Shown here: in pieces, positions 35,478 to 39,211 of the stretch
Numbering within the stretch: position 1 is the first letter of the stretch
Layout of the letters: every line of letters starts with the position of its first letter
From: Paracidovorax wautersii
GTDB taxonomy: Bacteria; Pseudomonadota; Gammaproteobacteria; Burkholderiales; Burkholderiaceae_C
NCBI RefSeq assembly: GCF_031453675.1
Contig: NZ_JAVIZX010000001.1
Span: forward strand, 3,246,001 to 3,310,000
Length of the DNA: 64,000 nt
Direction: 5' to 3'
Program-made: the position numbers and the translations under genes
The notes under the pieces: generated by a model
Seen by the model: only the letters and a program-made list of their open reading frames with translations
What the model was told of the DNA's origin: nothing
Databases searched by the model: none

Positions 35478-36752
35478 TCAGGCACGCCGCGAACGCGTGG
35501 CCCAGGCCAGCGCAAAGCAGAGGGCCAGCGTGGGCAGCGCCGAGCCGGCACCGGCCCACACGCGCGGCAGCAGGTGGTAGAACGCGATGCCCGACAGCCA
35601 CAGCGCCACCGGCAGCCACTCCACGCGCGATGCGCGCTGCAGCAGGGCGGGGGCCGACACGCCGAACGCCAGCCGCCCCAGGATCACGCCGAACAGCGGC
35701 ACGAACACCGAACTGAGCAGCAGCAGGAACGGCTCCAGGCTGTGCATGGGCAGCACCAGCGCCAGCGCCGTGCACACCGCCGCCACGGCCAGGCCCCATT
35801 GGCGGATGCTCCAGCGCGGCAGCAGGCTGTGGGCCGACACGGCGCCGGAATAGGTGTCGCCATAGGCGTTGTCCACCTCGTCGATGAGGATCAGCGACAG
35901 CGCGATCAGCCCGCCCTGCGCCAGCAGCAGCGCGGTCACCAGATCCTGGCTGGGCAGCGTCAGCGCCACCAGCACGCCCAGCGTGTAGCACCAGATATTG
36001 GCCAGCGCATAGCCCAGCCAGGTGCCGCGCAAGGCCGCGCCGCCGCTTCTGCCGTGGCGCGCGTAGTCGGCCACCAGCGGCAGCCACGAGATGGGCATGG
36101 CGATCACCAGATCCAGCGCGGGCATCACGCCCATGCCGCCGGCGCCCTGGCGCTGCCACAGCTGCGCAAAGCCCTGCGCATGCGCCAGCGACAGGAACTG
36201 CCAGCTCAGCCACAGCAGCGACAGCACGACGAGCGGCAGCGCCACGCGCGCGATCACCCGGCGCACCAGCTGCACCATCGAGCCGCTGATGAGCGCCATC
36301 ACCACCGCGCCCCACAGCAGCGTGGCCGCCACGGGCCACCAGGCCGCGGCCATGGCGCCGGACTGGCGGCCGATGGCCACCGTCGCGTCGCGCATCACCA
36401 CCAGCTCGAACGTGCCCCAGCCGATGAGCTGCACGATGTTGAGCACGATGGGCAGACTGGCGAAAGAGCGTCCGTAGACCGCATGCATCAGCCCGGCGCT
36501 GGCCAGGCCGCTGTCGCAGCCCAGCTTGGCCACCCAGCCCAGCAGGCCGGCGCCGACGAGCGAGCCGAACACGATGGCGGCGAGCGCCTCCTGCGTGCCC
36601 AACGCTGGCATGAGATAGGCCCCCACCTGCATGACCAGCAGGCCCACGCCCAGGCTGAACCACAGCGAGGCATGGTCGTGCCACTGGAACACGCGCCGCT
36701 CGGCGGGCACCGGTGCAAGCGCGTCGTTGGCGATGGGGGAGGAGGGGGACAT
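35478..36752 (-). CDS. cytX: Hydroxymethylpyrimidine permease CytX (NCS1 family)
   Basis: The 424-residue protein has about twelve hydrophobic helices and the NCS1 pattern SLWFSLGVGLLVMQVGAYL, GCDSGLASAGLMHAVYG and LPLVADYARHG. CytX-type permeases are found under TPP riboswitches and are thought to import HMP for thiamine salvage; the riboswitch at 36839-36942 supports this over cytosine transport. ATG 36752 gives a normal N-terminus (MSPSSPIANDALAPV). Confidence 0.9.
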   Translation of the reverse strand: MSPSSPIANDALAPVPAERRVFQWHDHASLWFSLGVGLLVMQVGAYLMPALGTQEALAAIVFGSLVGAGLLGWVAKLGCDSGLASAGLMHAVYGRSFASLPIVLNIVQLIGWGTFELVVMRDATVAIGRQSGAMAAAWWPVAATLLWGAVVMALISGSMVQLVRRVIARVALPLVVLSLLWLSWQFLSLAHAQGFAQLWQRQGAGGMGVMPALDLVIAMPISWLPLVADYARHGRSGGAALRGTWLGYALANIWCYTLGVLVALTLPSQDLVTALLLAQGGLIALSLILIDEVDNAYGDTYSGAVSAHSLLPRWSIRQWGLAVAAVCTALALVLPMHSLEPFLLLLSSVFVPLFGVILGRLAFGVSAPALLQRASRVEWLPVALWLSGIAFYHLLPRVWAGAGSALPTLALCFALAWATRSRRA

Positions 36753-36838
36753 GCGGGCTCCGTGGCAGAAACGACAGAGCAGGGGCCGCACGCGCCAGGC
36801 AGCGCCAGGGGAGTGGGCGGCGGCATGGCATGGTGGAC

Positions 36839-36942
36839 AGCTTCCCTGCGCGAGGATGATCTCGGGCCCACGCGTATCGGAGCGTGGGAACAGGTTCGAA
36901 GGGTGTGATCTCAGCCCTGCATTTGCAGGACACCCCTAGCTT
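36839..36942 (-). promoter_or_regulatory. TPP riboswitch upstream of cytX
   Basis: On the minus strand the order is AGCTAGGGGTGTCC, a P3 hairpin, GGCTGAGATCACACCC, TTCGAACCTG, then GAGATCATCCTCGCGCAGGGA and AGCT. All conserved TPP elements are present, and P1 is AGCT with AGCT. An extra hairpin (CCCACGC with GCGTGGG) is inserted after GAACCTG. It lies 87 bases before the cytX start. Confidence 0.9.
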
Positions 36943-37097
36943 GTGCCGCCTTGCGGCAGCGGCGCGCATTGTGCCATGCACCTGCGGCAGCTTGGCGCCT
37001 ATCAGTCCGCTGCGGTTTCAGGCAGCCTGGCGACGACCCTGATCCTGATCCTGAACTTAAAGCCGTACAGCCAGGTCTCGTCGATGCCGCTGCGGCG

Positions 37098-38028
37098 AGC
37101 ATTTGCAGCGATGTCGGGGGCCAGCACGCGGGGATCGCGTGGGAGCCTGGAGATGTTGGTCTTTTAGGGCTGTAGCGCTTTGGGGTTGGGTGGAGGGCGG
37201 TTCGCTGTTTTGATGTTGCCGGGGTTTTGCTTTCCGGGGCCGGGGTGTGCGCCCGGCGGCGCACTCACTTTCTTTTGCTTCGCCAAAAGAAAGTAAGCAA
37301 AGAAAAGGCGACCCGAAGTCCGTGACCCCCATCGCCGTTGGCGACCGGGGCAACCTGCGATGCTCGCGCGGCGGGGGCCGCCGTGGAACTCACTGCGCTG
37401 CGTTGCAGCTCCGTTCAGACAGCCACGGCGAGTCAGAGCACGAAGCCTGCGTGTCCTGCGGCACGCAGGCGCCCCCGCCGCGCTGTGCTTCTCGGCACGG
37501 CCACACGGGCAGGGGACGACTCGGGCCGTCGCTGCGCTCGGCCCTGGATGGGGGAGTGCGGGCGCACTGCGCAGGCGCGCAGCGCCGCGAAGGCCGGGTC
37601 AAGCGAAGCAAAGACCCGTGTCGTTCCCTCGCCCTTCTGTATGCGCCGAGGAGCACAGGGCGCGGGGCGGGCGGGTGTGCCGCAGGACACGCCCGCTTCG
37701 TGATCTGACTCGCCGTGGTTGTCCGAGCGGAGCGCGCCAGCGCGCAGCGAGTTCCACGGCGCCGCCCCGTGACCGAGCACCGCAGGTTGCCCACAGCGCA
37801 GCGGAGGGACGCAGACAGCAGGGTCGCCTTTCTATTGGGTACTTTTCTTTGGCGAAGCAAAGAAAAGCACCTCGCCCGCCGGGGCGAGACCCGGCCCGGG
37901 GAAGCAGCGCCTCAGCAGCCGCTCAAAAGAAAAGAAAGACGGTGCATCTTTCAAAAGCACAAAAAAGAGGGCGCCAAAGGGGTGGCGGTCTTTCGCGCAA
38001 GCCCGGGCGACGGCAAGCATTTGCAGCG
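37098..38028. repeat. Thirteen-base direct repeat flanking the palindromic region
   Basis: AGCATTTGCAGCG occurs at 37098-37110 and again at 38016-38028 in the same direction, bracketing the large palindrome with over 100 bases to spare on each side. It could be an insertion scar or part of the repeat family. Confidence 0.45.
37263..37885. repeat. Large imperfect palindrome, about 620 bp, in a gene-free kilobase
   Basis: Left arm 37263 to about 37530 and right arm about 37605-37885 are inverted copies of each other. Landmarks of the left arm (AAAGAAAAGGCGACCC, GGCAACCTGCGATGCTCG, GCCGTGGAACTC, CCACGGCGAGTCAGA, GTGTCCTGCGGCAC) recur on the other strand of the right arm in the same order. Each end carries a perfect short hairpin (TTTCTTTTG with CAAAAGAAA; CTTTTCTTTG with CAAAGAAAAG). 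No convincing gene lies between 36943 and 38095. Confidence 0.85.
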
Positions 38029-38095
38029 CCGATGGGAGCGTGCTTGAACGGGGTGGTCAGCGAGGCATGGGGGACGTCCCCTCCGCCCCAGGTCG

Positions 38096-39211
38096 TCAGT
38101 GCGTGGCGGGCGATGCCACGCCCAGCCGTTCGTGCAGGCGCGTGCTGGTGGTCGTGTACTGCAGCGCGACCGGCGCCTCCGCCACGCGCTCGGCGGCGGC
38201 GAAGGCGGCCAGCGTGGCCTCGTGGAAGCCGCACAGGATGAGCTTGCGCTTGCCCGGGTAGGTGTTGATGTCGCCCACGGCATAGATGCCGGGCACGCTG
38301 GTGGCGAAGGTGGCCGTGTCCACCACCAGTTGCTTGCGTTCGATGTCCAGGCCCCAGTCGGCCACGGGCCCCAGTCGCGGCGAGATGCCCAAATAGACGA
38401 AGAGCCGGTCGAGCGGAAGGCGCTGCGCAGCGCCTTCGGTGTCGGTCAGGTGCAGTGCCTGCAGCGGCCCGCCTGCGGGCGCATCCACCCCGGTGATCTG
38501 CGCGGCAATCACGCGGATGCGGCCTTCGTCGCGCAGGGGCTGCAGGCGTGCCAGCACCTCGGGTGCCGCCTGGAAGGCATCGCGGCGGTGCAGCAGCGAC
38601 ACGCTGGCGGGGGCGCCGTCACCCTGGCGCTCGGCACAGGCAATGGCGGCAGCCACGGCGGCTTCTTCGCCGCCGTGCACGACGACGTGCCGGCCTGCCA
38701 CCACGGGGGCGCTGGCGGCGTCATCGATGGCGGGGTGGTAGAGCACCTGCGTGCCCACGAAGGCCTCGATGCCCTCCGCCTTGACGGTGCGCGGCACGAA
38801 GGCGCCCACGCCGGCGGCGATGAAGACGTTGCGCGCCAGCAGCGTGGTGCCGGTGGTGGTGCTCAGCAGCACGCGGCCATCACCCGGCTGCACGGCCAGG
38901 GTGCTGACCTGCTGGCCCAGGTGGCGCTGCGGCGCGAAGGGAAGGATCTGGCGCTCCAGGCGCTGCACCAGCTCGCGGCCGGTGCAGACGTCCACGCCGG
39001 GAATGTCGTAGATGGGCTTGTCGGGGTACAGCTCGGCGCACTGGCCGCCCACGTGGGGCAGGGCGTCGATGAGGTGCGCAGCCATGCCTTGCAGGCCCAG
39101 CTGGAACACCTGCCACAGGCCTACGGGCCCGGCGCCGATGACGACGGCGTCCGTCTCGATGGGATGATGCTGCGTGGAGGGAGTCACGGCAACGGACGCT
39201 GATGGCGCCAT
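38096..39211 (-). CDS. Ferredoxin-NADP+ reductase (thioredoxin reductase-like)
   Basis: The 371-residue protein has an FAD motif ([19 protein letters not shown]), an NADPH-binding region ([19 protein letters not shown]) and the C-terminal [23 protein letters not shown]. The paired redox cysteines of thioredoxin reductase are absent, so it belongs to the ferredoxin/flavodoxin reductase group of this fold. The ferredoxin gene fdxA lies just upstream on the same strand, so they probably form an electron-transfer pair. Confidence 0.9.

Follow-up and report, generated by a model that had tools for sequence, protein, structure and literature searches.

What kind of DNA is an imperfect palindrome of 672 bp lying between two bacterial genes, and which part of it has been conserved? 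The question is raised by a locus in a stretch of 64,000 nucleotides from Paracidovorax wautersii (hereafter the window), for which an initial annotation had described such a palindrome with capped ends. The palindrome is real and slightly longer than first described, extending over 37232-37903, where inverted repeats, self-alignment and the common ends of six genomic copies delimit an inverted pair of two structured units. The left unit (37232-37517, plus strand, read cap-first) has an alpha-type cap and a hybrid body, and the right unit (37619-37904, minus strand, cap-first) is of the beta type; both were placed by arm alignments and by matches to an arm profile (L028:5232-5530 and L028:5903-5612, respectively). 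Between them lies a variable centre (37518-37618) that aligns poorly among copies, and whose equivalent holds cargo at three Burkholderia loci. The landmarks of the arms do run in matching order, in three inverted blocks that are collinear across the entire element in self-alignment: 37232-37314 with 37821-37903 (83 nt, 71% complementary), 37348-37398 with 37742-37792 (51 nt, 82%) and 37408-37516 with 37625-37733 (109 nt, 79%). Both caps are perfect 10-bp A/T-rich pyrimidine/purine stems (37268-37277 with 37284-37293, and 37842-37851 with 37858-37867), outside which the element carries GC-rich inverted ends. The gene-free interval measures 1.3 kb (36792-38095) and is flanked by two minus-strand genes, 35478-36791 and 38096-39211; the gene-free flanks were thus slightly overstated at first, the gene on the right ending only ~190 bp from the element. 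Folded as RNA, the whole element gives z = -21.6 against shuffles, and the left arm alone, folded as single-stranded DNA, gives z = -3.67, with no shuffle reaching the fold quality of the element in either calculation.

Chance as the source of the similarity between the arms is excluded by a search for copies, as the initial annotation had proposed. The genome of the window, a single contig of 4.57 Mb, contains six copies, of which the other five are 77-84% identical to the window copy, and matches occur in 24 of 40 relatives and in all 17 genomes of the genus. Every copy in the window's genome combines one alpha-type with one beta-type arm body, while caps may be exchanged from one type to the other. 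Next to the left end of most of the copies in this genome (G000; L002-L006) lies a short repeat similar to AGCGCTTAT..GGTAAGCGC...AGCTATCATTTTTGAAT, which also occurs to the right of L006.

The conserved feature is the single arm, not the palindrome. RNAalifold and mutual information, applied to 41 non-redundant arms, revealed a fold within each arm of ~285 nt, in which a long stem encloses ~190 nt and is accompanied by an outer hairpin, the cap hairpin, an inner helix and a side hairpin. In a formal count on 35 arms, 59 pairs were 98.7% paired, a percentage that leans towards the fold, as the structure was derived from related arms. Stronger evidence is provided by two-sided changes, which affect 33 of the 59 pairs (299 cells) and yield a covariation score of 0.396 versus 0.04-0.11 for slid controls. 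In the left arm of the window (plus strand), the inner helix GCCGTGG/CCACGGC (37380-37429; helix 6) has both-side changes at four of six pairs, and the side hairpin CCTGCGTG/CACGCAGG (37446-37469; helix 9) at six of eight. Arm-to-arm pairing was considered as the conserved feature and dropped, because the arms diverge by 18-29% in the blocks while the pairs inside them hold. The large cruciform between the arms, suggested at the outset, is likewise not favored by the conservation, since compensatory change sits within each arm and not between arms. Single units from distant lineages have a similar layout with different sequence, as judged from minimum-energy folds, which carry no measure of covariation.

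The left cap hairpin CTTTCTTTTG-CTTCGC-CAAAAGAAAG (37268-37293, plus strand) has a perfect 10-bp stem that covaries across lineages; its loop bases TCGC (37280-37283) and the tail GCGA (37308-37311) form a pseudoknot (37280-37311), and between stem and tail lies the putative third strand CAAAGAAAAG (37298-37307), mirror-matched to the purine strand of the stem. The right cap (37824-37867, minus strand) contains the hairpin CTTTTCTTTG/CAAAGAAAAG (37842-37867), with the loop bases GCGA (37852-37855) and its pseudoknot partner TCGC (37824-37827). Across 69 caps from many lineages, the hairpin loop pairs with the downstream tail, and all five loop-tail pairs have changed on both sides, the outermost being mostly unpaired. 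Within the genus, the purine stretch between stem and tail tracks the stem at three stem positions that vary, with G accompanying C-G and A accompanying T-A. This three-way covariation is the pattern expected for a third strand along the pseudoknot stem, and the cap may be described as triplex-like.

The manner in which pairs switch bears on whether the fold matters as DNA or as RNA. Among covarying pairs of genus arms read cap-first, 1068 cells are Watson-Crick, 2 are G-T and 7 are A-C; on the opposite strand of the same arms, other pairs are chosen, with 33 G-T cells among them. As a control, RNase P of these genomes has 55 G-T versus 5 A-C cells over all pairs, and 5 G-T versus 70 Watson-Crick cells over covarying pairs only, which are few and make the control a small one. 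In low-GC solo units, G-U pairs amount to 3.4%, compared with 9.6% in shuffles. As the pairs switch almost without wobble intermediates, these counts argue with moderate strength that it is probably as DNA, or on both strands, that the fold matters. The argument is used cautiously because the test, once made strand-symmetric, had no power left, for RNase P as well as for the arms.

The unit is distributed widely. The cap is present in 35 of 398 Pseudomonadota genomes, and capped units of ~285-330 nt occur across the phylum either solo or as inverted pairs. Among the matches listed, the cross-lineage cap pattern was found in Burkholderia, Pasteurellaceae, Halopseudomonas, Silvimonas, Lysobacter, Rhodoferax and many gammaproteobacterial assemblies. 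In one Pseudomonas-like complete genome (G227), dispersed copies number at least 40. With gaps excluded, 13 of them that were sampled share 91% identity, and their outer flanks are unrelated; in at least one genome, therefore, the unit has spread. The suggestion of a repeat family or a remnant of a mobile element is supported by this dispersal, together with the six copies in the window's genome and the taxonomic spread. A replication or condensation site, also suggested, finds no such backing: the G227 copies are divided without bias between the strands of the replichores (19 versus 21, with the origin assumed at the contig start), and none of the tests pointed to such a site. A part of a phage or plasmid was rejected as well, as the element is nearly absent from plasmids (6 of 72,556 records, where the matches in Variovorax and Comamonas cover part of the arms and those in Pasteurella and Aeromonas just the cap) and had no match in a search of phage records. 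Cap matches also appear on assemblies titled Ruminococcus, Bacteroides and Bacteroidales (L128, L165, L166 and L179), which may reflect mis-titled bins or transfer.

In the genus, copies occupy orthologous places in different species, as defined by flanking genes. The neighbor genes of one such place, locus A, are present in all 17 species, and in ~15 of these a palindrome match, or a contig end, lies beside them; in one species (G009) the locus has only a mini-palindrome of ~50 bp built from the outer ends. In Burkholderia, one palindrome stands at the same place in more than 10 species. In a tree of 92 arms, nevertheless, the grouping mainly follows genome and arm type and does not follow locus. 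Because positions are orthologous yet the tree follows genome and arm type, the copies of the genus are inherited vertically in place and their sequences are homogenised between copies within genomes, presumably through gene conversion. Past the element ends, a few G009 and G010 copies have flanks with genuine inverted similarity, which is not a general property. At locus D of G009 (L045), for example, the inverted symmetry runs well over 50 bp past the element on each side (TCATTGAATAGTTTGCTATTGTTTTTGTAGTTGATT...), unlike in most copies.

The units are sited close to gene ends. With gene calls from a home-made caller, the genus has the element in 20 convergent gaps, 18 tandem gaps and 1 divergent gap, the corresponding numbers for the remaining gaps at these loci being 10, 117 and 35; by distinct locus, in the authors' own grouping, 10 of 19 were convergent versus 10 of 162 background gaps (p = 1e-6). 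At locus D, as read by eye, most species that lack the element have a terminator-like hairpin in a convergent gap, and where the element is present such a hairpin is apparently kept beside the palindrome. In G010, a CRISPR-like repeat array (GTTTCAATCCACGCGCCC...CGCGAC) lies between the two genes of locus D at the place where relatives have the palindrome (L279, G010:C29:8600-12600, at ~1050-1700), and traces of a similar repeat are found at locus D of G016.

The initial annotation had advised looking for associated proteins. The Y1 transposase domain (Y1_Tnp, PF01797, a profile that does not separate RAYT from IS200) is single-copy in 17 of 17 genomes of the genus and in 24 of 24 family members in the sample of relatives. 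In the phylum sample, it occurs in 30 of 35 unit-bearing genomes versus 183 of 363 others (p = 5.5e-5, uncorrected for phylogeny). These counts make a REPIN-like relation to a Y1 transposase plausible. Against it, no unit lies near any of the 16 Y1 loci examined; in addition, two genomes with units (G027 and G244) have no Y1 match, and G244 and G282 are family members in the phylum sample without Y1.

Compared with REP sequences and REPINs mobilised by RAYT (TnpA-REP), small hairpin repeats that presumably spread as single-stranded DNA, with REPINs as defined previously (PMC3116915), the element is likewise intergenic, non-coding and dispersed, occurs as solo hairpin-forming units and inverted doublets, shows compensatory changes in predicted single-stranded DNA hairpins, and, in family members of the sample of relatives, accompanies a single-copy Y1 transposase, although two clear carriers have no such match. 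However, REP units measure 20-40 bp (PMC3733652), GI REPINs have a spacing of 71 bp (PMC3116915) and REPINs adjoin their cognate RAYT genes, whereas the unit described here is about tenfold larger at ~285-330 nt, with a branched fold and a pseudoknotted cap, has few copies in the window's genome at old, common positions, and was not found beside the Y1 gene at the 16 loci. Because of unit size and the lack of RAYT adjacency, the element is not classed as a REPIN. MITE-like elements are non-autonomous and intergenic and have inverted ends, all of which the element shares; unlike them, it has a conserved fold inside each arm, and no parent transposon with the same ends was found. No target-site duplication was recognised at the G227 copies or in comparisons of filled and empty sites, where the boundaries of the element are fuzzy.

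Parts of the element have probably been catalogued, although as a whole it is little described. At either end of a Burkholderia palindrome, the Rfam family RF02421 (Bp1_684), reading outwards, covers part of the outer flank and the edge of the cap, with 59.9 bits against a gathering threshold of 44. In the window, it has no match even with E values of up to 5 allowed, and Rfam gave sub-threshold chance matches only. The family derives from a Burkholderia sRNA candidate, Bp1_Cand684, whose transcript was validated by RT-PCR primed with oligo(dT), by which strand and ends were not established (PMC3521395). At 113 nt, RF02421 misses the arm, the pairing of units and the other lineages. Pseudomonas fluorescens has two intergenic repeats, R200 of 320 bp and R26 of 352 bp, that match the solo units of G227 in size and copy number and may correspond to them, and the passages covering them describe no fold (PMC2718517). 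No account of the element as a whole, of its fold or of its distribution was found in the open-access literature, and a literature search with the motif was also empty.

The reading favored here, tentatively and with somewhat less than even confidence, is that of a very large REP/REPIN-like, non-autonomous element that would be handled as folded single-stranded DNA by an enzyme in trans. The element would consist of two inverted copies of a non-coding unit, ~285-330 bp long and widespread, and each copy, as single-stranded DNA, would adopt the conserved branched structure with its pseudoknotted, triplex-like cap. This folded strand, the presumed active form, would be recognised by a DNA-processing enzyme, for which a Y1/HUH transposase of the TnpA-REP kind is the best candidate, and the units would insert, or survive, mainly beside gene ends, to be retained by vertical inheritance and homogenised between copies. 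This reading draws on the covarying fold within the arm, the scarcity of wobbles, the covariation of the cap, the dispersal in G227, the solo and paired units, the occurrence of Y1 and the concerted evolution at conserved positions. Against it stand the Y1 loci without a unit nearby, the carriers without Y1, the absence of strand bias and target-site duplication, the small wobble control, the G-T cells of the opposite strand and the RT-PCR transcript of Burkholderia. The main rival, possible but rather unlikely, is a structured RNA, each unit acting after transcription as a 3'-UTR element or sRNA. RNA pseudoknots with a triple helix of U.A-U and C+.G-C triples are known, and the U/C-rich strand of the unit, read outward from the centre, could form such triples along the pseudoknot stem. 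The pseudoknot with its triplex-like covariation and the closeness of units to gene 3' ends would suit an RNA, as would the overlap of RF02421 with the outer flank and cap edge in Burkholderia and the RT-PCR validation of its candidate, which by its oligo(dT) priming does not fix strand or ends (PMC3521395). Wobble pairs, however, are almost absent at switching positions and G-U pairs fall below shuffles, whereas RNase P in the same genomes has 55 G-T versus 5 A-C over all pairs.

Less probable still is an old palindrome with no current function, maintained by template-switch hairpin correction and gene conversion between copies, a process that fits the Watson-Crick-only hairpins, the concerted evolution and the seeming collapse of locus A in G009 to its mini-palindrome; local hairpin correction would hardly produce the long-range helices, invariant loops and pseudoknot, and the architecture recurs in distant lineages with different sequence. 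A bidirectional transcription terminator or insulator between convergent genes would explain the convergent excess (10 of 19 distinct loci versus 10 of 162 background gaps) and the nearly empty divergent gaps, but this is very improbable, as about half of the sites are tandem, the caps have no G+C-rich stem followed by a U run, and, by eye, filled sites at locus D seem to retain terminator-like hairpins beside the palindrome while empty sites have ordinary ones.

Were the fold under selection as DNA, it would rank among the most elaborate selected single-stranded DNA structures in bacterial chromosomes, a pseudoknot and triplex-like contacts being otherwise familiar mainly from RNA. It would also bring together in one family the Burkholderia sRNA candidate, possibly the Pseudomonas intergenic repeats, and unannotated palindromes, which in draft genomes are often located at the ends of contigs, and it makes testable which enzyme reads the element, and whether it is read as RNA or DNA. 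A broader proposal, doubtful at present, would recognise a Pseudomonadota superfamily of large DNA-encoded folds, whose pseudoknotted triplex cap and branched arm would be selected as single-stranded DNA and handled by an enzyme, and whose inverted pairs would serve as long-lived chromosomal sites able to receive cargo genes, such as those of type VI effectors, at the centre.

In most Burkholderia palindromes, the centre measures only a few hundred bases, whereas at three loci (L100, L161 and L210) 2.1-3.2 kb separate the two caps and additional genes lie between them, those of L100 including a PAAR protein and a Tae4 amidase effector. Since the G+C content of this enclosed DNA is below that of the DNA around it, late gain of cargo at the centre appears likelier than loss. 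In another order-level relative (L115), the arms are ~1.2 kb apart with small ORFs between them. At L100, L161 and L210, a type VI PAAR and Tae4 effector cluster occupies the centre of a palindrome that is without such genes in related species.
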